Origin: Serratia entomophila
GTDB taxonomy: Bacteria; Pseudomonadota; Gammaproteobacteria; Enterobacterales; Enterobacteriaceae
NCBI RefSeq assembly: GCF_021462285.1
Contig: NZ_CP082787.1
Span: forward strand, 186,001-250,000
Reading direction: 5' to 3'
DNA: 64,000 bases
The position numbers and the translations under genes are program-made. This document shows, piece after piece, positions 16,148 through 27,801 of the stretch. Every line of letters starts with the position of its first letter. Position 1 is the stretch's first letter. Below the pieces are notes generated by a model, which saw nothing but the letters and a program-made list of their open reading frames with translations, did not search any database and was not told the DNA's origin.

Positions 16148-17017
16148 CTATTCGATCTTCTTGCCTTCCAGCAGCCGTTGCACCAGCGGCGCCATAATCA
16201 GCTCCATCGCCAGCCCCATTTTGCCGCCCGGCACCACCAGCGTATTGATATGCGAGATGAAAGAGCCCTGCAGCATCGCCAGCAGGTAGGGGAAGTCAAT
16301 CTGATCCAGCCCGCGGAAGTGGATCACCACGAAGCTTTCATCCAGCGAAGGAATGGCCTTGGCGGCGAACGGGTTGGAGGTATCGACCGTCGGCACGCGC
16401 TGGAAGTTGATATGCGTGCGTGAGAACTGCGGCGTGATGTAGTTGATGTAGTCCTCCATCGAGCGCACCACCGAGTCCATCACCGCCTCGCGCGAATGGC
16501 CGCGTTCGCCGGTATCGCGGATCAGCTTTTGGATCCACTCCAGGTTGACGATGGGCACCACGCCGACCAGCAGGTCGACGTGTTTGGCCACGTCGTTGTG
16601 TTCGGTGACTACCCCGCCGTGCAGGCCCTCGTAGAACAGCACGTCGGTCGGCGCCGGCAGCGGCTCCCAGGGCGTGAAGGTGCCGGGCACCTGATTGTAG
16701 GGCACCGCCTCGTCATAGGTGTGCAGATATTTGCGCGAGCGGCCGGTGCCGTTCTGGCCGTAATCGATAAAGCTTTGCTGCAGCAGGCCGAAGTCGTTGG
16801 CCTCGGGGCCGAAATAGCTGATATGCCTGCCCAGATCGCGCGCCTTGCGGATCGCCGCGTCCATTTCCGGCCGGGTGTAGCGGTGGAAGCTGTCGCCTTC
16901 CAGCTCCGCTGCGCGGATGTTGAGCTGCTGGAATATTTTGCGGAACGCCACGCTGGTGGTGGTGGTGCCGGCGCCGCTGGAGCCGGTTACCGCGATAACG
17001 GGATGTTTGGCAGACAT
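16148..17017 (-). CDS. prkB: Phosphoribulokinase-like protein PrkB
   Basis: The 289-residue protein has a P-loop GSSGAGTTT near residue 12 and matches E. coli PrkB (YhfF-region kinase, 289 aa) along its length. It belongs to the phosphoribulokinase/uridine kinase superfamily. Enterobacteria lack a Calvin cycle, so the physiological substrate is unclear and the phosphoribulokinase label rests on family similarity. The start at 17017 (MSAKHPVIA) gives the E. coli length; an ATG four codons upstream is possible. The order yheU-prkB-yhfA-crp is that of E. coli. Confidence 0.9.
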   Translation of the reverse strand: MSAKHPVIAVTGSSGAGTTTTSVAFRKIFQQLNIRAAELEGDSFHRYTRPEMDAAIRKARDLGRHISYFGPEANDFGLLQQSFIDYGQNGTGRSRKYLHTYDEAVPYNQVPGTFTPWEPLPAPTDVLFYEGLHGGVVTEHNDVAKHVDLLVGVVPIVNLEWIQKLIRDTGERGHSREAVMDSVVRSMEDYINYITPQFSRTHINFQRVPTVDTSNPFAAKAIPSLDESFVVIHFRGLDQIDFPYLLAMLQGSFISHINTLVVPGGKMGLAMELIMAPLVQRLLEGKKIE

Positions 17018-17062
17018 GGTGGTTTTCACTCCGTGTTAAATGCGCCGGCGTCAGAGAAGGGT

Positions 17063-17189
17063 TATACCCGTCATGCTTCAAGCCGCATCTTTGTTGGCTG
17101 CCTTCGTTCACCCCAGTCAGTTACTGGAGTAAGCGCCTGGGAACTCGCTCAGTTGCCGCCTCGATGCAACCCGAATTATTTTGGCTATG
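17063..17189. repeat. ERIC (enterobacterial repetitive intergenic consensus) element
   Basis: The roughly 127-bp segment begins GTTATACCCGTCATGCTTCA and ends near GAATTATTTTGGCTATG. It contains CACCCCAGTCAGTTACT and GCGCCTGGGAACTCGCTCAG, which are variants of the classical ERIC core. The outer parts are complementary, so a transcript would fold into a long imperfect hairpin. It lies between prkB and yheU. No ORF crosses it. Confidence 0.9.
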
Positions 17190-17293
17190 CAAATCTGTGT
17201 GACACCTTTTCGCCGGGGGCAAAATTTCGCGTGCGGGTTTGCAATAAGCCATTGTTACCTGATTTTTTCCGTCAGTAATAGAACCGGTAACCA

Positions 17294-17527
17294 CTAAATT
17301 TCTTCCTGCCCGGCGCGGATCTGTCCGCGCGGCATGATATTGACGGTCTCATGCAGCTCCGACCATACCAGCACCACCTCGCCGGTTTGCAGCTGGCGGC
17401 GCACGTCATCCACCTTCTGCGCCAGCGAGCGCTCATGTTCGCCGTAGTCGGTGCCTTCGCGCAGCACAAAGGATTCGATCAGGCCGTTGAGGGTGTCGGT
17501 TTCAAGCTCTTTCCAGGGGATAATCAC
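17294..17527 (-). CDS. yheU: YheU family protein (UPF0270)
   Basis: This 77-residue protein matches E. coli YheU (72 aa), with the conserved core [17 protein letters not shown] and the segment [16 protein letters not shown]. Function is unknown. The start is a GTG at 17525-17527 that overlaps the yheT stop codon (GTGA), so the two genes are translationally coupled; family homology begins at exactly this residue (IIPW). A longer open frame to 17581 lies inside yheT and is not part of the protein. The C-terminus ([10 protein letters not shown]) is slightly extended compared with E. coli. Confidence 0.88.
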
Positions 17528-18504: not shown

Positions 18505-18623
18505 AACCTGAGTAAAAATCTTGTTGGCGGCTATTGTGAGATCAATAGCGCACTGTTAGCTTCAATACCATGAATTAACAATAATACTGCAAAAATGCGC
18601 CCTGGGTGAGGAGCACCCGCTTC

Positions 18624-19226
18624 ATGGAACTGAGTTTATTTCTCCCGATGTTAGGCTTCCTGTGGGTGGCCGCCATCACTCCCGGCCCCAATAATATGTT
18701 ACTGACCACCTCCGGCGCCAACTTCGGCTTTATGCGATCGCTGTGGCTGATGATTGGCATCATGCTCGGCATGCAAAGCATCTTGCTGCTGGTGGCGTTT
18801 GGCGTCGGCAGCCTGATCCTGGTTTACCCGTCGCTGCACCTGATCCTGAAAATTCTCGGCAGCCTGTACTTGCTGTGGCTGGCGTGGAAGGTCGCCACCG
18901 CCGCCTATGAAAAGCTGGATACCGACGTGGCGCCGCCCAAACCGGTGCGTTTGTACCAGGGTTGGCTGTTGCAGTTCCTCAACCCCAAGGCCTGGCTGAT
19001 GGCGCTGGGGGCGGTGGCGAGCTTCAGCCTGGCGGGGGATAAGTACAATCAATCCATTTGGGCCATCGCGCTGGGCATTTTCGTGGTAAATATTATCGCC
19101 GGTATTGTCTGGCTGGGGTTAGGCACGATGATCGGCCGCCTGCTGCGCAGTAAAAAGGCCTGGGTGATTTTTAACGTTTCCATGGGCTTGCTGACCGCGG
19201 CCTGCGTGTTGCTGATCTGGCACTGA
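18624..19226 (+). CDS. LysE/RhtB-family amino-acid exporter
   Basis: The 200-residue protein has about six hydrophobic helices and the LysE family signature PGPNNMLL near residue 20, followed by a conserved FLNPKAWLMALG segment in the second half. Members export amino acids or related metabolites by proton exchange; the substrate here cannot be told. The ATG at 18624 is preceded by GAGGAG; an in-frame codon at 18606 lies upstream of that site. A PhzF-type gene starts 9 bp after its stop, so the two probably form a small operon. Confidence 0.87.
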   Translation: MELSLFLPMLGFLWVAAITPGPNNMLLTTSGANFGFMRSLWLMIGIMLGMQSILLLVAFGVGSLILVYPSLHLILKILGSLYLLWLAWKVATAAYEKLDTDVAPPKPVRLYQGWLLQFLNPKAWLMALGAVASFSLAGDKYNQSIWAIALGIFVVNIIAGIVWLGLGTMIGRLLRSKKAWVIFNVSMGLLTAACVLLIWH

Positions 19227-19235
19227 GGACATGTT

Positions 19236-20018
19236 ATGACGGAAAACTATTTCCACGTCGTCGCCTTTACCGGTGAAGGCCTGCGCGGCAACCCGGCCGG
19301 CGTCTGCCTGTTGCCGCAGCCGCTGCCGGCGGAGCGGATGCAGGCGATCGCCAACGAAATCGGCCTGCCGGAAACCAGTTTTGTCTGGGATGACGGCGAC
19401 ATGACGGCGATCCGCTGGTTCACCCCCGAGCGCGAAGTCGACCTGTGCGGGCACGGCACGCTGGCGGCCGCACAGGTGATGTTCAGCCGGGTCAATCCGG
19501 CGCTGCAGGATATACGTTTCCGCGCGGCCGGCGGCGAACTGTACGTTAAGCGCGACGCGCAAGATGGCGAGCGCCTGGTGCTTGATTTCCCGTCGCGGCC
19601 GCCGCAGAAGGTCGCGGAGCCCGCCGGGCTGGCGGCGCTGCTGGGCGCCAGGCCGCAGGAAGTCTGGCAGGCCAACGCGCTGCTGGTGCTGCTGGAGAAT
19701 GAGGCGCAGCTGCGGGCGTTGCGCCCGGCGATCCCGGCCTTGATCGCTTTGGCCGGCCGCGCGGTGATAGTCAGCGCGCCGGGCGAGGAAGTAGACTTCG
19801 TCTCGCGCTATTTCACCCTGGACGGCGGCGAAGATCCGGTAACCGGTTCCGCGCACTGCACGCTGATGCCCTATTGGACGGCGCGTCTTGGCCGCCACCG
19901 GCTGCACGCGCGGCAGATTTCGGCGCGCGGCGGTGAGCTGTTCTGCGAACAGAAGGGCGATCGCACGCTGCTCGGCGGCTACGCCCATGTCTTCTTGTGC
20001 GGTGAAATCAGCCTGTAA
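19236..20018 (+). CDS. PhzF-family isomerase
   Basis: The 260-residue protein is a two-domain diaminopimelate-epimerase-like PhzF homologue. Visible family features are the N-terminal FTGEGLRGNPAGV loop, the catalytic Glu46 in GLPETSFV, the DLCGHGTLAA motif, and EDPVTGSAHC in the second half. PhzF itself isomerises trans-2,3-dihydro-3-hydroxyanthranilate in phenazine synthesis, but most bacterial homologues of this kind lie outside phenazine clusters and have no known substrate. No other phz genes are nearby. It directly follows the LysE-type exporter and ends tail-to-tail, with no gap, against the LacI-type gene. Confidence 0.88.
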   Translation: MTENYFHVVAFTGEGLRGNPAGVCLLPQPLPAERMQAIANEIGLPETSFVWDDGDMTAIRWFTPEREVDLCGHGTLAAAQVMFSRVNPALQDIRFRAAGGELYVKRDAQDGERLVLDFPSRPPQKVAEPAGLAALLGARPQEVWQANALLVLLENEAQLRALRPAIPALIALAGRAVIVSAPGEEVDFVSRYFTLDGGEDPVTGSAHCTLMPYWTARLGRHRLHARQISARGGELFCEQKGDRTLLGGYAHVFLCGEISL

Positions 20019-20999
20019 TCAGGCGGAACCGCGTTCTACCAGCCGCCAGCCCAACACTTCATTGCTTGGCGGCTGCTGCGGATTTTTGATTTTATCCAGC
20101 AGCAACTGCACGCTGCGCACGCCAAACTGATGCATCGGCTGTTCGACGGTGGTCAGCGGCGGAGTGGTGACGGCGCCGAACGGCACGCCGTCGAAGCCCA
20201 TTACCGCCACCTCTGCCGGGATCGCCACCCCCTGCTGATGCAGGGCGCTCATCGCGCCGCCGGCGATCACGTCGGAGATGGCGAACACCGCATCCGGGCG
20301 CGGTTGCTCGTCCAGCAGCCGGCTCATCGCCAGCGCCCCGGCGGCATACTCCAGCCCCTCGACGTACTCCACCCGGCAATAGTCCAGCCCCAGTTCGGCC
20401 AGCGCCTGCCGGTAACCCTGTTCCCGCTGCTGTGAATAGAGGTAACGCATATCGCTGTTGATCAGCGCAATGCGTTGCCGGCCCTGCGCCGCCAGATAGC
20501 GCACCCCGGCCAGCGCCGCCTGGTGGTTGTCGATGGTGACCGACGACGCGCGGAAATTGGGATCGCCTTCGCCGCACTGCACCCAGGGGAAGTCGCCAAT
20601 CATGGCGGTCAGGCCGGGCAGGCAGCTGACGGCGTCCATGGTGATCACGCCGTCCACCACTTTGCCGCTCAGCAGGCTGAGGTAGGCGGATTCGCGCGTC
20701 GGGTTGGATTCGGAGTTGCACAGCAGAATGTGGTAGCCATGGCGTTCGGCTTCTTCTTCGATACCGCGCACCACCAGCGAACAAAAGGGGTTGGTGATGC
20801 TGGAAACCAGCACCAGCAGCATGCGGCTGCGTGAGGTGCGCAGCTGGCGCGCCAGCAGGTTGGGCTGATAGTCGCATGCGCGGATCGCCGCCAGCACCCG
20901 GTCGCGGGTGGCCGGTTTGACGATCTGCTGGCCATTCAACACCCGCGAGACGGTTGCGGCGGAGACGCCGGCGAGTTTCGCCACCTTTTCTATCGACAT
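20019..20999 (-). CDS. LacI-family repressor, divergent from the oxidoreductase/isomerase operon
   Basis: The 326-residue protein has a LacI helix-turn-helix (MSIEKVAKLAGVSAATVSRVLN), hinge helix ending LARQLRTS, and a type I periplasmic-binding-like effector domain. The start at 20999 is chosen because it begins the HTH; upstream in-frame codons to 21035 precede any homology. It is divergent from the operon beginning at 21242. The 242-bp intergenic region carries two identical 17-bp sites with the palindromic core AATCGATT, the expected kind of target. The effector is probably the operon substrate or an intermediate; this is inference. Confidence 0.88.
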   Translation of the reverse strand: MSIEKVAKLAGVSAATVSRVLNGQQIVKPATRDRVLAAIRACDYQPNLLARQLRTSRSRMLLVLVSSITNPFCSLVVRGIEEEAERHGYHILLCNSESNPTRESAYLSLLSGKVVDGVITMDAVSCLPGLTAMIGDFPWVQCGEGDPNFRASSVTIDNHQAALAGVRYLAAQGRQRIALINSDMRYLYSQQREQGYRQALAELGLDYCRVEYVEGLEYAAGALAMSRLLDEQPRPDAVFAISDVIAGGAMSALHQQGVAIPAEVAVMGFDGVPFGAVTTPPLTTVEQPMHQFGVRSVQLLLDKIKNPQQPPSNEVLGWRLVERGSA

Positions 21000-21144
21000 G
21001 GTTTGCTGTTCCTTCTGCCCATTTGGCCCGCACAATATGCCGAAGTGCGGGCGCCTGTCCGCGCCCGGCCGCAGGATTGTGATGGCGGTTACAAATTCAT
21101 CTTATCAATGCCACTCTCTACATTAATCAGGTTGCCGAAAAAAA

Positions 21145-21161
21145 GAAATCGATTACATTTT
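21145..21161. promoter_or_regulatory. Operator-like site 1 in the lacI-divergent operon promoter region
   Basis: GAAATCGATTACATTTT contains the palindromic core AATCGATT with a central CG, typical of LacI/GalR operators. An identical copy starts 32 bp downstream. The regulator encoded at 20019-20999 is the obvious candidate ligand. Confidence 0.65.
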
Positions 21162-21176
21162 GCTCATGGTGAAAAT

Positions 21177-21193
21177 GAAATCGATTACATTTT
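21177..21193. promoter_or_regulatory. Operator-like site 2, identical copy of site 1
   Basis: The same 17 bases as at 21145-21161, in the same orientation. The 32-bp spacing is close to three helical turns, so two repressor dimers could bind the same DNA face. Site 2 ends 48 bp before the first gene of the operon. Confidence 0.65.
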
Positions 21194-21241
21194 ACAATTT
21201 CGTCGTATTTCGCCGGTTTCTAAACGCAGAAGAGGTGGCGG

Positions 21242-22153
21242 ATGCAACTTTCATTAGCGGAACAGGGTGATGGTCAGGAGATTGCGCGGCTGATCCACCT
21301 ATCGACCAACGCCTGGTATCGGCGTCACGGCATGGGGGCCATTTTCCCCGCCGGGCCGGACAGCTGCGGGCTGTTCGTCGACCTGTATCGCCAGTTGGAT
21401 CCCGGCCGGCACTGGATAGTGCGCGATGAACAGGGGGTGCTGTGCGGCTCCTGCTTCTTCCACCCGCGGGATACGCACCTCGGGTTGGGCATCATGAATG
21501 TGCATCCCGATTACTTCGGCCGCGGCATCGCTGCCCGGCTGATGATCAAGGCCGACGAGCTGGCGGGCGATTTGCCGATACGGCTGCTGTCCAGCGCGCT
21601 GAACCTTGACTCCTATGCGCTGTATCACCGCGCCGGTTTCACCCCTTATGCACTGTATCAGGATATGGCGATCCCGGTGCCGGCCGCGGGATTTCCTCCC
21701 CTCCGGTTGACGCGCGGCCGGGTGCGCGCCGCCCGGCCGGACGATCTGGCCGGCATCCTGCAATTGGAACGAGAGCTGCTGGGCATCGAACGGCGGCGAG
21801 ACATCGGCTACTTCCTCAATGACGCCAGCGGATTATGGCGCACTGCGGTGTGGGAGCTGGACGGCGGTATCGGCGGTTATCTGGCCTCGGTGGCGCATCC
21901 GGCTTCGCGCATGCTGGGGCCGGGGTGCGGCCACAGCGAAGAGATCGCGCTGGAGCTGATCGGCTGGATGCTGGACCGGCATCACCGCGGCGAGACGCCG
22001 GTGGTGCTGGTGCCGGCCCGGCGCTCTGCCCTCAGCCAGGTGCTGTTGCAATGGGGCGGGCGGATTTGCGAATTGCATGTGGCGCAGGTGAAAGGCCATG
22101 CGCAGCAACCCGGCGGTGTGGTTATGCCGTCCTTCCTGCCGGAAAGCGGTTAG
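21242..22153 (+). CDS. Tandem GNAT-like acetyltransferase, first gene of the catabolic operon
   Basis: The 303-residue protein has an N-terminal GNAT domain. Its acetyl-CoA motif is at residues about 84-100 (MNVHPDYFGRGIAARL), followed by the YALYHRAGF element usual for GNAT motif B. Residues from about 155 resemble a second, degenerate GNAT half (VRAARPDDLAGILQLERELLG) without a clear acyl-CoA loop. The two-domain layout is seen in some GNAT enzymes. The substrate is unknown; possibilities are an intermediate of the downstream pathway or a detoxified by-product. It starts with ATG directly after an AGAGGTGGCGG ribosome binding site and is followed after 31 bp by the permease gene. Confidence 0.75.
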   Translation: MQLSLAEQGDGQEIARLIHLSTNAWYRRHGMGAIFPAGPDSCGLFVDLYRQLDPGRHWIVRDEQGVLCGSCFFHPRDTHLGLGIMNVHPDYFGRGIAARLMIKADELAGDLPIRLLSSALNLDSYALYHRAGFTPYALYQDMAIPVPAAGFPPLRLTRGRVRAARPDDLAGILQLERELLGIERRRDIGYFLNDASGLWRTAVWELDGGIGGYLASVAHPASRMLGPGCGHSEEIALELIGWMLDRHHRGETPVVLVPARRSALSQVLLQWGGRICELHVAQVKGHAQQPGGVVMPSFLPESG

Positions 22154-22184
22154 ACAACATGACAACAATACCGATGGGGGAATT

Positions 22185-23444
22185 ATGCAAACTGACAGCG
22201 CGGCCCTGGGGGCCAAAAGCGTCGTATTCAAATGGGTAGTGCCGCGGTTGGCGCTGATGATGTTCCTGCAGTTCTTTGTCTGGGGCGCCTGGTACGTCAC
22301 GCTCGGCGTGGTGATGGGCAAGTACGGGCTGGCGGCAATCATCGGCGACGCCTATTCCACCGGCCCGATCGCCTCGATTCTGTCGCCGTTCGTGTTGGGG
22401 ATGGTAGTGGACCGCTTCTTTGCCTCGCAAAAGGTGCTGGGCGTTCTGCATCTGATTGGCGCCGGGCTGCTGTGGCTGATGCCGGGTTTCTTCAGCAGCG
22501 GGCAGAGCGGCCTGCTGTGGGTAATCTTCGGCTACATGCTGTGCTATATGCCGACCATCGCCCTGAGCAACAACGTGGCGTTTTACAGCCTGAGCGACAG
22601 CGAAAAAGCCTTCCCGGTGGTGCGGGCGTTCGGCACCTTCGGCTGGATTGTCGCCGGCCTGATCGTCGGCGCCAGCGGGCTGTCCGACAGCACCGGCATT
22701 TTCACGCTTGCGGCGGTGGCCTCGCTGGCGTTGGCCATTTACAGCTTTACCCTGCCGCATACCCCGGCGCCGGAGCGCGGCAAGCCGGTAAAAATGCGCG
22801 ACCTGCTGTGCGCCGATGCGTTCGCCATGCTGAAACAGCGGCATTTTCTGGTGTTTATTATCTGCGCCACGCTGATTTCCATCCCGCTGGCGGCCTATTA
22901 CGCCTATGCCGCGCCCTTCGTAGCGGCCACCGGCTTCAGCAACGTCGGCGGCGTGATGTCACTGGGGCAGATGTCCGAGCTGTTCTTTATGCTGCTGATC
23001 CCCTTCCTGTTCGCCCGGCTGGGCATCAAGGCGATGCTGCTGGTCGGCATGCTGTCCTGGTTCCTGCGCTACGTGATGTTCGCGCTGGGCATCACCGAGG
23101 AGCTGCGCTGGATGATCTACCTCGGCATCATCCTGCACGGCATGTGCTACGACTTTTTCTTCGTGATCGGTTTTATCTACACCGACAAGGTGGCCGGCGA
23201 TAAGGTCAAGGGACAGGCGCAGAGCCTGCTGGTGCTGTTCACCTACGGACTGGGCATGCTGATCGGCTCGCAGATCAGCGGCGCGTTGTTCAACCGCCTG
23301 GTAACGGCGGAAGGGGCGGCGGCGTTGCCGCAGTGGCAGAGCTTCTGGTGGTATCCGGCCATCGGCGCGCTGGTTATCGCCGCGCTGTTCTTCTTTACCT
23401 TCAACTACCGGGAAATCCCGCAGGAGGAGAAGCGAGATGGCTGA
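22185..23444 (+). CDS. MFS permease of the nucleoside:H+ symporter type
   Basis: The 419-residue protein has about 12 transmembrane helices and resembles the nucleoside:H+ symporter (NHS) branch of the MFS that includes NupG, XapB and YegT. Recognisable features are FLQFFVWGAWYVTLG in helix 1, SILSPFVLGMVVDRFF after helix 2, and PTIALSNNVAFYSL. NHS members carry nucleosides, but some have other or unknown substrates. In this operon it is likely the uptake system for a glycoside, nucleoside or cyclitol processed by the next three genes. The ATG at 22185 follows a GGGGG ribosome binding region. The last 8 bp overlap the next gene. Confidence 0.83.
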   Translation: MQTDSAALGAKSVVFKWVVPRLALMMFLQFFVWGAWYVTLGVVMGKYGLAAIIGDAYSTGPIASILSPFVLGMVVDRFFASQKVLGVLHLIGAGLLWLMPGFFSSGQSGLLWVIFGYMLCYMPTIALSNNVAFYSLSDSEKAFPVVRAFGTFGWIVAGLIVGASGLSDSTGIFTLAAVASLALAIYSFTLPHTPAPERGKPVKMRDLLCADAFAMLKQRHFLVFIICATLISIPLAAYYAYAAPFVAATGFSNVGGVMSLGQMSELFFMLLIPFLFARLGIKAMLLVGMLSWFLRYVMFALGITEELRWMIYLGIILHGMCYDFFFVIGFIYTDKVAGDKVKGQAQSLLVLFTYGLGMLIGSQISGALFNRLVTAEGAAALPQWQSFWWYPAIGALVIAALFFFTFNYREIPQEEKRDG

Positions 23445-24510
23445 TTTACGCGTGCTGGTGGTGGGCTGCGGCAATATGGGGGCTTCGCACGCCGAAGCCT
23501 ATCACGGTATGACAGGCGTCGAGATTTGCGGGCTGGTGGCGCGCGGCGATTCCCGGCGCCGGCTCAATGCCCGGCTGGGCGGCGGCTACCCGGAGTTCAG
23601 CGACTTCGCGCAGGCGCTGGCGGTTACGCGCCCGGATGCGGTCTGTCTGACCACCTGGCCTGACACCCACGAGCCCTATGCGCTGGCGGCGCTGGCCGCC
23701 GGTTGTCACCTGTTTATTGAAAAGCCGCTCGCCACCACCGTGGCCGGGGCGGAGCGGGTGATCGCCGCCGCGCGCGCCGCCGGCCGGCAGGTGGTGGTCG
23801 GATATATTCTGCGGCATCACCCGTCGTGGCGGCAGTTTGTCGCGTTGGCGCGCGGCCTGGGCAAGCCGCTGGTGATGCGCATGAACCTCAATCAGCAGAG
23901 CCATGGCGCGATGTGGGACGTGCATCGCAACCTGATGCAGTCGCTGTCGCCGATCGTCGACTGCGGCGTGCATTACCTCGACGTCATGTGCCAGATGACC
24001 GAGTCGGAGCCGCTCAGCGTCAGCGCCATCGGCGCGCGGCTGAGCGATGCGCTGCCGCCGGAGATGTACAACTACGGCCAGCTGCAGGTGCGCTTCGCCG
24101 ACGGTTCGGTCGGTTGGTACGAGGCCGGCTGGGGGCCGATGATCAGCGAAACCGCTTTTTTTGTGAAAGACGTCATCGGCCCGCTGGGCGCGGTCTCCAT
24201 CGTGGCGCGACAGGCGGCGGCGGGAGAATCGGATAACGTCGATGCCCACACCCGCACCGAGTCGCTGCGCATCCATCACGCCGCGCTGGACGACGCCAAC
24301 CAGTTTATCCGGCCGGACCGCTGGATAGACTGCCGGGATGAACCGGATCATCTGGCGCTGTGCCTGAGTGAGCAACGCTATTTTCTGCAGGCGATACGTG
24401 AAGGGCTGGATCTCGGCCGGCACTGGCTGGATGCGTTGAACAGCCTGCGTGTCGTGCTGGCGGCGGACGAGGCGGTGCGCAGCCAGAGAACGGTAATGAT
24501 AGAGAGGTAA
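23437..24510 (+). CDS. Gfo/Idh/MocA-family oxidoreductase 1
   Basis: The 357-residue protein begins with a Rossmann NAD(P) motif VGCGNMGASH. The family EKP motif has Lys96, and the C-terminal domain begins after an active-site helix with DCGVHYLDVM (Asp175, His179). These are the general catalytic positions of Gfo/Idh/MocA dehydrogenases, which oxidise or reduce a sugar or inositol hydroxyl with NAD(H). The start overlaps the permease gene by 8 bp and the next gene begins 4 bp after its stop. It is clearly different in sequence from the second oxidoreductase of the operon, which suggests two different steps rather than a recent duplication. Confidence 0.87.
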   Translation: MADLRVLVVGCGNMGASHAEAYHGMTGVEICGLVARGDSRRRLNARLGGGYPEFSDFAQALAVTRPDAVCLTTWPDTHEPYALAALAAGCHLFIEKPLATTVAGAERVIAAARAAGRQVVVGYILRHHPSWRQFVALARGLGKPLVMRMNLNQQSHGAMWDVHRNLMQSLSPIVDCGVHYLDVMCQMTESEPLSVSAIGARLSDALPPEMYNYGQLQVRFADGSVGWYEAGWGPMISETAFFVKDVIGPLGAVSIVARQAAAGESDNVDAHTRTESLRIHHAALDDANQFIRPDRWIDCRDEPDHLALCLSEQRYFLQAIREGLDLGRHWLDALNSLRVVLAADEAVRSQRTVMIER

Positions 24511-24514
24511 ACAG

Positions 24515-25579
24515 ATGAAAACCATTCAGGGGCCGGGGTTGTTTTTGGCGCAGTTTATCGGTGCGCAAGCGCCATTTGACACATTGGACGGCTTGGCCGG
24601 CTGGGCCGCGGGATTGGGCTTTAAAAGTTTGCAGATCCCGACCGGTTCCCCGCATATTTTCGATTTGGCGCGGGCGGCGCATTGCCAGGCGTATTGCGAC
24701 GAGGTGCGTGAACGGCTGGCGCGGCATGGCGTGACGATTTCCGAGCTGTCCACCCATTTGCAGGGGCAACTGCTGGCGGTGCATCCGGCCTACGATCTGG
24801 CGTTCGATGGCTTCGCCCCGGCACAGGTGCGCGGCAACCCGCAGACGCGGCAGGCGTGGGCGCACGAGCAGCTGTTGATGGCGGCGCAGGCGTCACAGCG
24901 GCTTGGCCTGACCGCGCACGTGACCTTTTCCGGCGCGCTGGCCTGGCCCTATTTTTATCCCTGGCCGCCCCACAACGCCCGGTTGTTCGAGGAGGCCTTC
25001 AGCCAACTGGCGCAGCGCTGGCGGCCGATCCTCGACGCCTTCGACGATGTCGGCGTCGATCTTTGCTATGAGCTGCACCCGGGAGAAGACCTGCACGACG
25101 GCGTGACCTTCGAGCGCTTCCTGCGCCAGGTCGACAACCACCCGCGTTGCCACATTCTGTACGATCCCAGCCATCTGCATTTGCAACAGATGGACTATCT
25201 CGGGTTTATCGATCTGTATCATTCGCGCATCCGGGCGTTTCACGTTAAAGACGCCGAGTACCGGCCCAGCGCCCGCAGCGGCGTTTATGGCGGCTATCAG
25301 CCCTGGCTGGAAAGGCCGGGACGTTTTCGTTCGCTCGGCGACGGGCAGATCGACTTCCCGGCGATTTTCAGCAAGCTGGCGCAATACGATTTCCCCGGCT
25401 GGGCCACGCTGGAATGGGAGTGCTGCCTGAAGTCACCGGAAGCCGGGGCGCGGGAAGGGGCCGAGTTTATCGCGCGCCATATCATCCTGGTTGCCGGCCG
25501 GGCGTTTGATGATTTCGCCGCCGGCGGCGGCGAGTCTATGCAGATCAAAAAGATGCTGGGCATTGGAGAGCAGCCATGA
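24515..25579 (+). CDS. Sugar isomerase/epimerase or lyase, AP-endonuclease-2-type TIM barrel
   Basis: The 354-residue protein is a xylose-isomerase-like TIM barrel. Likely divalent-metal ligands are Glu186 (CYELHPGED), Asp217 (YDPSHL), His243 (FHVKDAE) and Glu300 (TLEWE). This fold is used by IolE, hydroxypyruvate isomerases, YcjR-type 3-keto-glycoside epimerases and the alpha subunits of C-glycoside deglycosidases. The position between two Gfo/Idh/MocA genes suggests it acts on a keto-sugar made by one of them. No small DUF6379-like partner gene, needed by known C-glycoside deglycosidases, is next to it. Its stop overlaps the next start by 4 bp (ATGA). Confidence 0.85.
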   Translation: MKTIQGPGLFLAQFIGAQAPFDTLDGLAGWAAGLGFKSLQIPTGSPHIFDLARAAHCQAYCDEVRERLARHGVTISELSTHLQGQLLAVHPAYDLAFDGFAPAQVRGNPQTRQAWAHEQLLMAAQASQRLGLTAHVTFSGALAWPYFYPWPPHNARLFEEAFSQLAQRWRPILDAFDDVGVDLCYELHPGEDLHDGVTFERFLRQVDNHPRCHILYDPSHLHLQQMDYLGFIDLYHSRIRAFHVKDAEYRPSARSGVYGGYQPWLERPGRFRSLGDGQIDFPAIFSKLAQYDFPGWATLEWECCLKSPEAGAREGAEFIARHIILVAGRAFDDFAAGGGESMQIKKMLGIGEQP

Positions 25580-26712
25580 GATTACGCTTGGGTATGGTCG
25601 GGGGCGGTGAAGGCGCGTTTATTGGCGCGGTGCATCGGCTGGCGGCGAGGATGGACGATGAGTTCGCACTGGTGGCCGGGGCTTTCTCCTCCGACTGGGA
25701 AAACTGCCGCCGCACCGGTGAATTGCTGCATGTCGATCCGCAGCGCTGTTATCGCGACTTCGCCCAGATGGCGCTGGCGGAGGCAGCCAGGGAAGACGGC
25801 ATCGATGCGGTGGCGATAGTGACGCCCAATTATCTGCACGCGCCGGTGGCGACGGCCTTCCTCGACGCCGGTATCGACGTCATTTGCGATAAGCCGCTGT
25901 GCAACAGCTATCCCGAAGCGCTGCAGCTGGCGGAGAAGGTGCGGCGCAGCGGGCGGCAGTTGATACTGACCCACAACTACAGCGCTTACCCGCTGGTGCG
26001 CGAGGCGCGCAGCCGGGTGCTGGCCGGTGAGCTGGGAGAAGTGCGGTTTATCGAGGTGGAGTATCTGCAGGAATGGCTGGCGCAGCCGCTGGAGCTGACC
26101 GACAACAAGCAGGCCGGTTGGCGCGCCGAGCCGGAAAAAGCCGGCGCGGGGTGCATCGGTGATGTGGGCACCCACGCCTGGCAGCTGGCGCAGTTTGTCT
26201 GCGGTATGCTGCCGCAGGCGATCAGCGCCGAACTCAGCACCTTTATTGCGGGCCGCCGGCTGGATGATGACGTGCGGGTGCAGATGCGTTACGCCAACGG
26301 CGCCAAAGGCCGGCTATGGGCCAGTCAGGTCGCCTGCGGGCATGAGAACGGGCTGCGGCTGCGGGTTTACGGCAGCGAAGGCAGCCTGGCGTTTAACCAG
26401 GAACAGCCGAATCAGTTATGGATACGCCCGCGGGATGCGCCGGCCTATTGCATTACGCGCGCCTCTTCATTCCAGCATGCGGAGAACCTCCGGCTGACGC
26501 GGGTGCCGGCGGGGCATCCTGAAGGATACCTGGAAGGGTTTGGCCAAATTTATCGCGAAGCGGCGCGCCGGCTGCGAGAGGGGCCCGAGGCAGCGCCGTT
26601 GCTGCCGGGCATCGAGACCGGCGTGCAGGGCATGGCATTTATCGACGCCGCGCAGCGCAGCAGCGCCGCCGGCGGAGAATGGATCGACGTAGAAGAATTC
26701 ATATTTCATTAA
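25576..26712 (+). CDS. Gfo/Idh/MocA-family oxidoreductase 2
   Basis: The 378-residue protein has the Rossmann start LGMVGGGEGAFIGAVHR, a DKP variant of the EKP motif (Lys106), and the catalytic-helix segment GDVGTHAWQL (Asp196, His200). The GGGEGAFIG start is shared with Gfo/Idh/MocA members linked to glycoside 3-oxidation and xylose-isomerase-like partners, from my recollection of family sequences. It is the last gene of the operon. The stop is followed by 93 AT-rich bases and then tauA. It probably carries out the opposite or complementary redox step to oxidoreductase 1. Confidence 0.86.
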   Translation: MRLRLGMVGGGEGAFIGAVHRLAARMDDEFALVAGAFSSDWENCRRTGELLHVDPQRCYRDFAQMALAEAAREDGIDAVAIVTPNYLHAPVATAFLDAGIDVICDKPLCNSYPEALQLAEKVRRSGRQLILTHNYSAYPLVREARSRVLAGELGEVRFIEVEYLQEWLAQPLELTDNKQAGWRAEPEKAGAGCIGDVGTHAWQLAQFVCGMLPQAISAELSTFIAGRRLDDDVRVQMRYANGAKGRLWASQVACGHENGLRLRVYGSEGSLAFNQEQPNQLWIRPRDAPAYCITRASSFQHAENLRLTRVPAGHPEGYLEGFGQIYREAARRLREGPEAAPLLPGIETGVQGMAFIDAAQRSSAAGGEWIDVEEFIFH

Positions 26713-26805
26713 GTAATAAAGAAGATTTTTTTATTCCTTTATCGCCTGCCATCGCTCGGATAAAACTGTCTGCAACTGAACAGACTTTTATCAACGGAGC
26801 GGAAC

Positions 26806-27801
26806 ATGGCGGGCAAATTCTTTTCCTTACGCGGCGCGGCGCTGCTGGTGTTATCGCTCAGCGCGGCCAGCGCCTACGCGGTGGACGTCACCGTGGCGTA
26901 CCAGACTTCGGCGGAGCCCGCCAAAGTGGCGCAGGCGGAAAACAGCTTCGCCAAACAGTCCGGCGCCAGCGTCGACTGGCGTAAATTCGACAGCGGCTCC
27001 AGCGTGCTGCGCGCGCTGGCCTCCGGTGACGTGCAGATCGGCAATATCGGTTCCAGCCCGTTGGCGGTGGCCGCCAGCCAGAAGCTTCCTATCGAAGTGT
27101 TCCTCATCGCCTCACAGCTCGGCAGCTCCGAAGCCTTGGTGGTGAAGAACGACATCAAGAGCCCGAAAGATCTGATCGGCAAGCGTATCGCGGTGCCGTT
27201 CATTTCCACGACGCATTACAGCCTGCTGGCCTCGCTCAAGCACTGGGGCATCAAACCCGAACAGGTGAAAATCCTTAACCTGCAGCCGCCGGCCATCGCC
27301 GCCGCCTGGCAGCGTGGCGACATCGACGGCGCCTATGTCTGGGCGCCGGTGGTCAACGAGCTGGCCAAGCAGGGCAAGGTGCTGACCGATTCCGAACAGG
27401 TGGGGCAGTGGGGGGCGCCGACGCTGGACGTCTGGGTGGTGCGCAAGGACTTCGCCGATAAGCACCCCGAGGTGGTGACCGCCTTCGCCGCCAGCGCGCT
27501 GCAGGCGCAAAAAGCTTATCTGGCCGAGCCGGAGAAGTGGCTGAAAGATAAAAACAATCTCAACATTCTGGCGCGCCTGAGCGGAGTGCCGGAAGCGCAG
27601 GTGCCTGAACTGGTGAAGGGTAACCGCTATCTGCCGGTGGCGGATCAAATAACCCAGCTTGGCCAGCCGGTGGACAAGGCTATCCGCGATACCGCCGAAT
27701 TCCTCAAGCAGCAGGGCAAGATCCCGCAGGTTGACGGCGATTACAGCGCCTACGTGACCGACCGTTTTGTAAAACAGGTGCAGGCTGCGCCGCAGTCGTA
27801 A
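26806..27801 (+). CDS. tauA: Taurine ABC transporter, periplasmic binding protein
   Basis: The 331-residue precursor has a signal peptide of about 25 residues ending SAYA. It then shows the NitT/TauT-type binding-protein fold with TVAYQTSAEP at the start, GNIGSSPLAVAAS and YVWAPVVNEL. It delivers taurine to TauBC for use as a sulfur source during sulfate limitation. In E. coli the operon is activated by Cbl; I could not define a Cbl site in the short upstream gap. Order and spacing tauA-tauB-tauC-tauD are those of the standard operon. Confidence 0.94.
   Translation: MAGKFFSLRGAALLVLSLSAASAYAVDVTVAYQTSAEPAKVAQAENSFAKQSGASVDWRKFDSGSSVLRALASGDVQIGNIGSSPLAVAASQKLPIEVFLIASQLGSSEALVVKNDIKSPKDLIGKRIAVPFISTTHYSLLASLKHWGIKPEQVKILNLQPPAIAAAWQRGDIDGAYVWAPVVNELAKQGKVLTDSEQVGQWGAPTLDVWVVRKDFADKHPEVVTAFAASALQAQKAYLAEPEKWLKDKNNLNILARLSGVPEAQVPELVKGNRYLPVADQITQLGQPVDKAIRDTAEFLKQQGKIPQVDGDYSAYVTDRFVKQVQAAPQS

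Follow-up and report, generated by a model that had tools for sequence, protein, structure and literature searches.

A LacI-linked operon of Serratia entomophila built on a predicted 2-hydroxy-3-keto-glucal hydratase, with a tentative role in keto-sugar salvage

The window analysed here is a 64,000-nucleotide stretch of the Serratia entomophila genome (contig NZ_CP082787.1, positions 186,001 to 250,000). It holds an operon of five + strand genes spanning 21242-26712, with a divergent LacI gene alongside. They encode a GNAT protein, a nucleoside:H+ symporter-like (NHS) permease, a Gfo/Idh/MocA dehydrogenase (GfoA), a barrel (HYD) and a second Gfo/Idh/MocA enzyme (GfoB). The gaps between successive genes are +31, -8, +4 and -4 bp, taking ATG 22185 as the permease start, the last value being the 4-bp overlap of the HYD and GfoB reading frames. 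An earlier sequence-only reading, made without database searches, had described the same genes, coordinates and spacing. The list of open reading frames bears this out, and Pfam agrees with its labels (PF00583, PF03825, two Gfo/Idh/MocA and, at 144 bits, the xylose-isomerase-like barrel PF01261). The LacI gene and two operator-like sites lie outside 21242-26712 and, judged from their sequences, belong to the operon unit. The features are as follows.

20019..21032, - strand: divergent LacI-family regulator, most likely the operon's repressor (Pfam LacI and Peripla_BP_3)
21146..21161, no strand: proposed LacI operator 1, AAATCGATTACATTTT (genome match with 0-1 mismatch, conserved in relatives)
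21178..21193, no strand: proposed LacI operator 2, the same 16-mer AAATCGATTACATTTT, 32 bp from operator 1
21242..22153, + strand: GNAT-type acetyltransferase, proposed to acetylate amino sugars (PF00583, 41 bits)
22185..23444, + strand: NHS-family permease, proposed keto-sugar importer (PF03825, 326 bits)
23437..24510, + strand: GfoA, Gfo/Idh/MocA dehydrogenase of an amino-sugar-operon clade (53-58% identity to six relatives)
24515..25579, + strand: HYD, barrel of the 2-hydroxy-3-keto-glucal hydratase family (PDB 8ro4, 553.5 bits)
25576..26712, + strand: GfoB, Gfo/Idh/MocA enzyme in the position of a 3-keto-glucose reductase (51% identity to a Rhizobium ruizarguesonis Gfo)

The barrel gives the clearest clue to the chemistry. 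HYD matches PDB 8ro4, deposited as a 2-hydroxy-3-keto-glucal hydratase, over residues 1-350 (E 2.1e-165), and its next solved relative reaches 123 bits. The complete Glu/Asp/His/Glu site of the sequence-only reading holds, as Glu186, Asp217, His243 and Glu302, which we take to be the metal ligands, are invariant in 12/12 aligned family members and present in the 8ro4 alignment. Because of the full-length match and these invariant residues, the assignment moves from a barrel that 'epimerises or eliminates' to a predicted hydratase of the non-hydrolytic glycoside route. The epimerase half of the earlier wording fell away; a YcjR-type epimerase was tried and rejected at 25 bits (E 0.02). Since the barrel is so closely related to a solved hydratase, the route is not novel in kind, as had been claimed. 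The 8ro4 entry presumably goes with a 2024 lyase/hydratase paper on Agrobacterium tumefaciens.

The genome has a paralogue of HYD, its closest being HYD2 at C1:2581401-2582450 (L029:9396-10451; 60% identity). HYD2 adjoins two alpha/beta hydrolase genes with a divergent TetR-like gene in front, and no Gfo is among the open reading frames called there. It is without His135, kept by the other 11 aligned HYD proteins. Such a paralogue (57-61%) occurs in 23/29 same-genus relatives, in one of them as two pieces.

The two dehydrogenases are dissimilar, as had been noticed, with 25% identity over 195 aa. GfoA carries the motifs EKPL and VDCGVHYLD and GfoB carries DKPL and GDVGTHAWQ; their Lys and Asp/His residues, found intact as described, we assume to be the catalytic positions. 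GfoB is 51% identical to the Gfo adjoining HYD in Rhizobium ruizarguesonis, and it matches PDB 3v5n at 398 bits. We propose by this likeness that it takes the 3-keto-glucose reductase position as the partner of HYD.

GfoA has different relatives. In a plasmid collection it matches 32 records at E <=1e-30, Providencia and 31 others, 20 of the 32 being listed and six of the 31 fetched, while chromosomes were searched within the order only. The six fetched relatives score 375-399 bits against GfoA, versus at most 63 bits for the other Gfo proteins compared, which included samples of the GfoB and GfoC groups. On these pairwise scores, GfoA and GfoB fall into separate clades, each with its own kind of neighbouring genes. 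In these six alphaproteobacterial loci the Gfo lies within a set of sugar ABC genes that has a GntR regulator (6/6). NagA, SIS and MurQ-like genes accompany it in 5/6, and so does a gene for an N-acetylglucosamine (GlcNAc) kinase or a BadF-type ATPase (5/6). The Gfo gene itself sits between the permease and ATPase genes, with the MurQ-like gene in front in 5/6. No description of its role in operons of this type was found in the open-licence literature.

Other comparisons of GfoA say less. It could act as the glycoside 3-dehydrogenase of a first step, but reaches only 44 bits to the first-position Gfo of Rhizobium. A Gfo paralogue in the same genome (C1:2835116) scores 31 bits to GfoA and 37 bits to GfoB. 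The best NCBIfam match of GfoA, UDP-GlcNAc 3-dehydrogenase (82 of 450 bits), gives no support, because the genome's own IolG scores as high there (86). Levoglucosan dehydrogenase (LgdA) was rejected for the pair, with NF052479 scoring 39 for GfoA and 124 for GfoB at a cut-off of 650. The structure model of GfoA has a mean predicted local distance difference test (pLDDT) of 60 and is good mainly in the Rossmann half.

The permease passes the PF03825 (Nuc_H_symport) cut-off of 25.9 by far but stays below the stricter NCBIfam cut-off for nucleoside permeases (321 of 446 bits). Its PDB matches are YegT (265 bits) and NupG (172 bits). We propose from the gene company that it imports the keto-sugar substrate. 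The GNAT protein has one clear GNAT domain and a weak one, PF18014, just below cut-off; a PDB search gave no match and its structure model is unusable (pLDDT 33).

The gene set recurs within the genus, sampled as 29 relatives plus the own genome. HYD is at least 88% identical in 6/29 relatives, all six with LacI|GNAT-NHS-GfoA-HYD-GfoB, so the complete five-gene order stands in 7/30 genomes. A plasmid-labelled record of Providencia rettgeri keeps all five genes and their order (GNAT 69%, NHS 89%, GfoA 77%, HYD 73% and GfoB 74% identity) beside a LacI gene 84% identical over 277 aligned residues. This recurrence, the outcome of a co-occurrence search that the sequence-only reading had suggested, means that the set is not a chance assembly. 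The Providencia record (NZ_CP058959, L130/L152) names no replication gene among its 15 listed features and may be a chromosomal fragment rather than a plasmid. The order LacI|NHS-GfoA-HYD-GfoB, without GNAT, is found at one Siccibacter, one Cedecea and two Atlantibacter loci.

Across the order we sampled 295 genomes including the own one, scoring a part of the first-look candidates in each, so that absences are soft. HYD appears at E <=1e-100 in 46 of them, GfoA at E <=1e-60 in 3, each time directly 5' of HYD, and GNAT at E <=1e-30 in the own genome only (1/295). A blastn search of window 23400-26712 gave no match in E. coli. HYD occurs in 312/72,556 plasmid records, the listed ones being mostly annotated as sugar phosphate isomerase/epimerase. 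One genome scan confirmed at least 593 stretches with HYD, a gene matched by both search patterns possibly counting twice.

LacI control, claimed earlier, finds support in the divergent gene at 20019-21032 and the two operator-like sites. The two AAATCGATTACATTTT sites lie before the operon and none is elsewhere in the 5.15-Mb genome within one mismatch; the reversed AAATCGATTACATTTT as control has no genome match within one mismatch. A sigma-70-like match at 21169-21198 overlaps operator 2 (one match versus 0.3 in shuffles). The LacI gene is beside the operon in 6/6 fetched same-genus loci, and both sites are kept in 7/7 same-genus loci, the second slightly changed in some. Upstream of the operon, related pairs also stand in the Siccibacter, Cedecea and both Atlantibacter loci and, spaced 21 bp, in Providencia. 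From this we infer LacI binding and repression at the operators.

The operator family is shared more widely. The best 80 of the at least 593 confirmed stretches, from other species, make up the HYD loci compared here. TGTAATCGATTACA, within two mismatches and anywhere in the locus, is in 55/80 of them with 88 sites; the reversed sequence is in none, and four further palindromes are in 1-2 loci each. By these site counts, the own genome has a one-operon LacI regulon and the operator is shared widely among HYD loci. The exact operator string is absent from the main text of a LacI-regulon review (PMC4052901), and no description of the operon or the operator was found in the open-licence literature.

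Gene presence in the 80 loci was scored by single-sequence tblastn in flanks of at most 8 kb, some ended by the contig, so an absence is less certain than a presence. In 75/80 a Gfo of the tested types is near HYD. The transporter is an NHS permease in 31, an ABC set in 31 and neither in 18. Because of these counts, HYD and Gfo look like the core and the transporter like an exchangeable part. The Gfo partners are also swapped among loci. A homologue of the eliminase OGE occurs in 3/80, a GMC oxidase-like gene in 14/80, and in 57/80 a search for four types of barrel gave no second one. Nine loci consist of LacI/NHS/HYD/GfoC with none of the other tested oxidases or lyases. DUF1080, the 3-keto-disaccharide hydrolase family, is in 13/31 NHS loci versus 0/49 others. 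Pfam confirmed it on four proteins from three loci, and upheld the labels DUF1080, GMC, Gluconate_2-dh3, barrel and NHS on ten representatives.

The DUF1080 proteins of the NHS loci read as beginning like exported proteins, and therefore the keto product would arise outside and then be imported. In 7/10 xanthomonad loci a second copy of the variant TGCAATCGATTGCA lies at about 16.6-16.9 kb of the locus; in L045 and L054 it stands just before a block of barrel, GMC, Gluconate_2-dh3 and DUF1080 genes. This second site, as a sequence match, ties HYD and NHS to probable extracytoplasmic sugar oxidation. According to PMC9007349, the Caulobacter DUF1080 protein has a putative signal peptide, and among the genes upstream of lacB, those for a transporter, two 'epimerases' and a reductase matter to Caulobacter crescentus on lactose. 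By analogy with the Caulobacter relative L108, these genes would be the NHS, barrel, GfoB and HYD genes.

Two rhizobial loci show other settings of HYD. L128 (Rhizobium ruizarguesonis pRlX3) has Gfo, an OGE homologue, a sugar ABC transporter, HYD and Gfo, by sequence likely a fuller oxidise/eliminate/hydrate/reduce set. L129 (Rhizobium rhododendri pTi6.2), on a tumour-inducing plasmid, has a sugar ABC set, LacI, HYD and Gfo.

The operon here has a single barrel, and the dedicated eliminase (OGE) of the four-step locus is not found in it. The Rhizobium OGE query (139 bits to AtOGE, PDB 8bvk) has no match in the own genome, in a search that had no positive-control genome and did not use CGE, LgdB1 or GlycDH as queries. 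Eight PF01261 loci of the genome, compared with OGE, reach at best 27 bits, and that for the genuine IolE. DUF1080 has no match in the own genome either.

At close to an even chance, we favour an operon under LacI control that takes up and salvages oxidised sugars of the non-hydrolytic (3-keto) glycoside route. From the family membership, motif residues, gene order, repeated operator-like sites and conserved company, we infer the substrate, redox directions, cofactor and roles of GfoA and GNAT. The NHS permease would bring in a sugar oxidised at C3 or its elimination product (a 3-keto-hexose or a 2-hydroxy-3-keto-glycal) that had formed extracellularly. HYD would add water to the hydroxy-keto-glycal to give the 3-keto-sugar, and GfoB would reduce C3 with NADH to an ordinary hexose for central metabolism. 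With such an end product, no own aldolase or glycosidase would be needed, and with a pre-made keto-sugar at the start, no enzyme would be missing from the LacI/NHS/HYD/GfoC operons. GfoA and GNAT would be lineage-specific additions, most likely for a 2-amino or 2-acetamido version of the substrate. This amino-sugar extension is probable from the company of the GfoA relatives and the presence of GNAT.

Import of a pre-made keto-sugar is preferred because the minimal, xanthomonad and Caulobacter loci share the permease and hydratase families, and because neither an AtOGE-like nor a DUF1080 protein was found in the own genome. Several points weigh against it. The solved NHS relatives are named as nucleoside carriers, the keto-sugar specificity being predicted, and 10/13 DUF1080 loci come from Xanthomonadaceae (to which we presume L041 to belong), so they are not many independent events. 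GfoA is one dehydrogenase beyond the needs of salvage and suggests internal oxidation. Two barrels adjoining the inositol cluster (C1:101677-102435 and C1:113581-114288; L132:4669-5505 and 16522-17412) reach no NCBIfam cut-off, and either could be an unrecognised eliminase. The genome holds one Gluconate_2-dh3 subunit, so an own periplasmic sugar oxidase is possible.

The surplus dehydrogenase has a place if an intact glycoside is imported. GfoA would oxidise C3 with NAD+, HYD would eliminate the aglycone and hydrate the glycal, and GfoB would reduce 3-keto-glucose and regenerate NAD+, three proteins thus together matching the work of a single GH4 glycosidase active site. The redox balance closes, GfoA is directly 5' of HYD in 3/3 order-wide matches including the own one, and the two are adjacent in 12 mapped operons (7 same-genus including the own, Providencia and the four named loci). 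The lack of an AtOGE-like or DUF1080 protein in the genome fits this as well. The elimination by HYD is the delicate step. LgdB2 of Bacillus smithii is partly bifunctional, eliminating and hydrating (PMC7676230), whereas AtHYD is inactive on 3-keto-phlorizin (PMC10628242), and this opposition keeps the idea live. However, LgdB2 is always accompanied by the eliminase LgdB1 in LgdA neighbourhoods (PMC10066097). Elsewhere, the GfoA relatives belong to amino-sugar operons whose fetched stretches contain no HYD, and related NHS/HYD/GfoC operons, as far as the tested types go, lack a second dehydrogenase. We consider the intact-glycoside route doubtful. As the Gfo pair comes from different clades, the earlier idea that one dehydrogenase oxidises and the other resets the cofactor is only one of two live models. 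Improbable, to our mind, is an amino-sugar pathway proper, in which GfoA acts on C3 of a substrate containing glucosamine or GlcNAc (chitobiose-like, or an N-acetylmuramic acid (MurNAc) or anhydro derivative), GNAT N-acetylates free amino groups, and HYD and GfoB process the remaining half. The company of the GfoA relatives and the acetyltransferase gene within the operon speak for it. However, the relatives of HYD and GfoB are linked with substrates of the glucose type, the UDP-GlcNAc 3-dehydrogenase match is unspecific, the Gfo of those amino-sugar operons is undescribed in the open-licence literature found, and the GNAT substrate is only proposed, with an unusable model.

The sequence-only reading had compared the operon with E. 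coli ycjS-ycjR, and 3-keto-glycoside epimerisation of that kind would use the same folds, a dehydrogenase pair and a PF01261 barrel with a LacI-type regulator. The window LacI reaches 130 bits (30%) to YcjW, but the barrel scores 25 bits to YcjR versus 553 bits to 8ro4. GfoA and GfoB reach 56 and 49 bits to YcjS, YcjQ gives nothing of note, and the operon is without a phosphorylase or phosphoglucomutase gene. We hold epimerisation to be very improbable. An inositol or inosose catabolic operon is hardly credible, even if IolG and IolE are distant relatives of the window proteins. The latter score 59 of 290 bits (iolE) and 73 of 355 bits (iolG), far below the NCBIfam cut-offs, so they do not look like the simple inositol enzymes that the sequence-only reading had named as the outcome against it. 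A genuine iol cluster is elsewhere at C1 ~97-117 kb (IolG 571 of 540 bits, IolE 397 of 290 bits), and the window proteins reach at most 63 bits to its members; inositol catabolism was rejected on these grounds. Of the keto-sugar pathway first suggested, the oxidise/eliminate/reset flavour, the own importer and the LacI control survive and the novelty in kind does not.

Around the operon, the GC content is 63.8% in the five genes versus 57.7% in the window. A weak terminator-like hairpin is at 26768-26785, and the set starting at 26806 downstream is presumably taurine-transport-like. LysE-type exporter and PhzF-like genes (18606-20018) adjoin the LacI gene and are kept beside it in 6/6 fetched same-genus operon loci.

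A wider picture of the salvage operon is possible, though rather less than evenly probable. The proteobacterial LacI regulon marked by TGTAATCGATTACA may be a cross-feeding device that imports and repairs 3-keto-sugars or 2-hydroxy-3-keto-glycals from neighbours, with NHS permeases as importers. In this genus and in Providencia, a C3 dehydrogenase for amino sugars and an acetyltransferase would have been added to it, so that it reaches keto-amino-sugars derived from chitin or peptidoglycan. If true, neighbours that run the oxidative glycoside route release keto-sugars which the operon carriers salvage. The shared operator, the exchangeable transporters and the few recognised eliminases lead to a testable idea that oxidised sugars are traded and carried by NHS permeases. 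Through the relatives of GfoA in amino-sugar operons, a particular class of substrates offers itself for testing.

The E. coli ycjQRS guloside/glucoside operon has in common two dehydrogenases and a PF01261 barrel near a LacI-type regulator. The barrels are distantly related if at all, and the ycjQRS product names are those of the record. The alphaproteobacterial GlcNAc/MurNAc-type ABC operons (L144-L149) share the GfoA relative but have no HYD, GfoB or NHS permease in the stretches fetched. The Caulobacter lacABC/DUF1080 locus (PMC9007349) has its likeness through the relative L108, which shares LacI, the NHS permease, a GfoB-type reductase and HYD. Unlike the operon here, L108 has GMC oxidase-like and DUF1080 genes and a second barrel, while the own genome has no DUF1080 match.

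The levoglucosan route of Bacillus smithii (PMC7676230) is the same kind of chemistry with other sequences. Its LgdA/LgdB1/LgdB2/LgdC share with our operon two Gfo/Idh enzymes and a barrel that hydrates a glycal to a 3-keto-sugar. One barrel is present here and an ABC importer there, and the Lgd likeness is by description and an LgdA-type model only. The A. tumefaciens glycoside route is non-hydrolytic and goes by oxidation, elimination, hydration and reduction. PMC10628242 offers evidence, which it terms preliminary, for hydration of the glycal by AtHYD and for reduction of 3-keto-glucose by the Gfo of that operon. Its GlycDH/AtOGE/AtHYD/Gfo operon (PDB 8bvk, 8ro4) shares the HYD barrel and the adjoining Gfo, the hydrate/reduce half. 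In contrast, the window operon is without a flavin GlycDH gene and an OGE-like barrel was not found; it has instead the NHS importer, the extra GfoA of the amino-sugar clade and the GNAT gene. Hence, by sequence, what is new here is a known hydratase-reductase core joined to an MFS-type importer, an amino-sugar-operon dehydrogenase and a GNAT gene.

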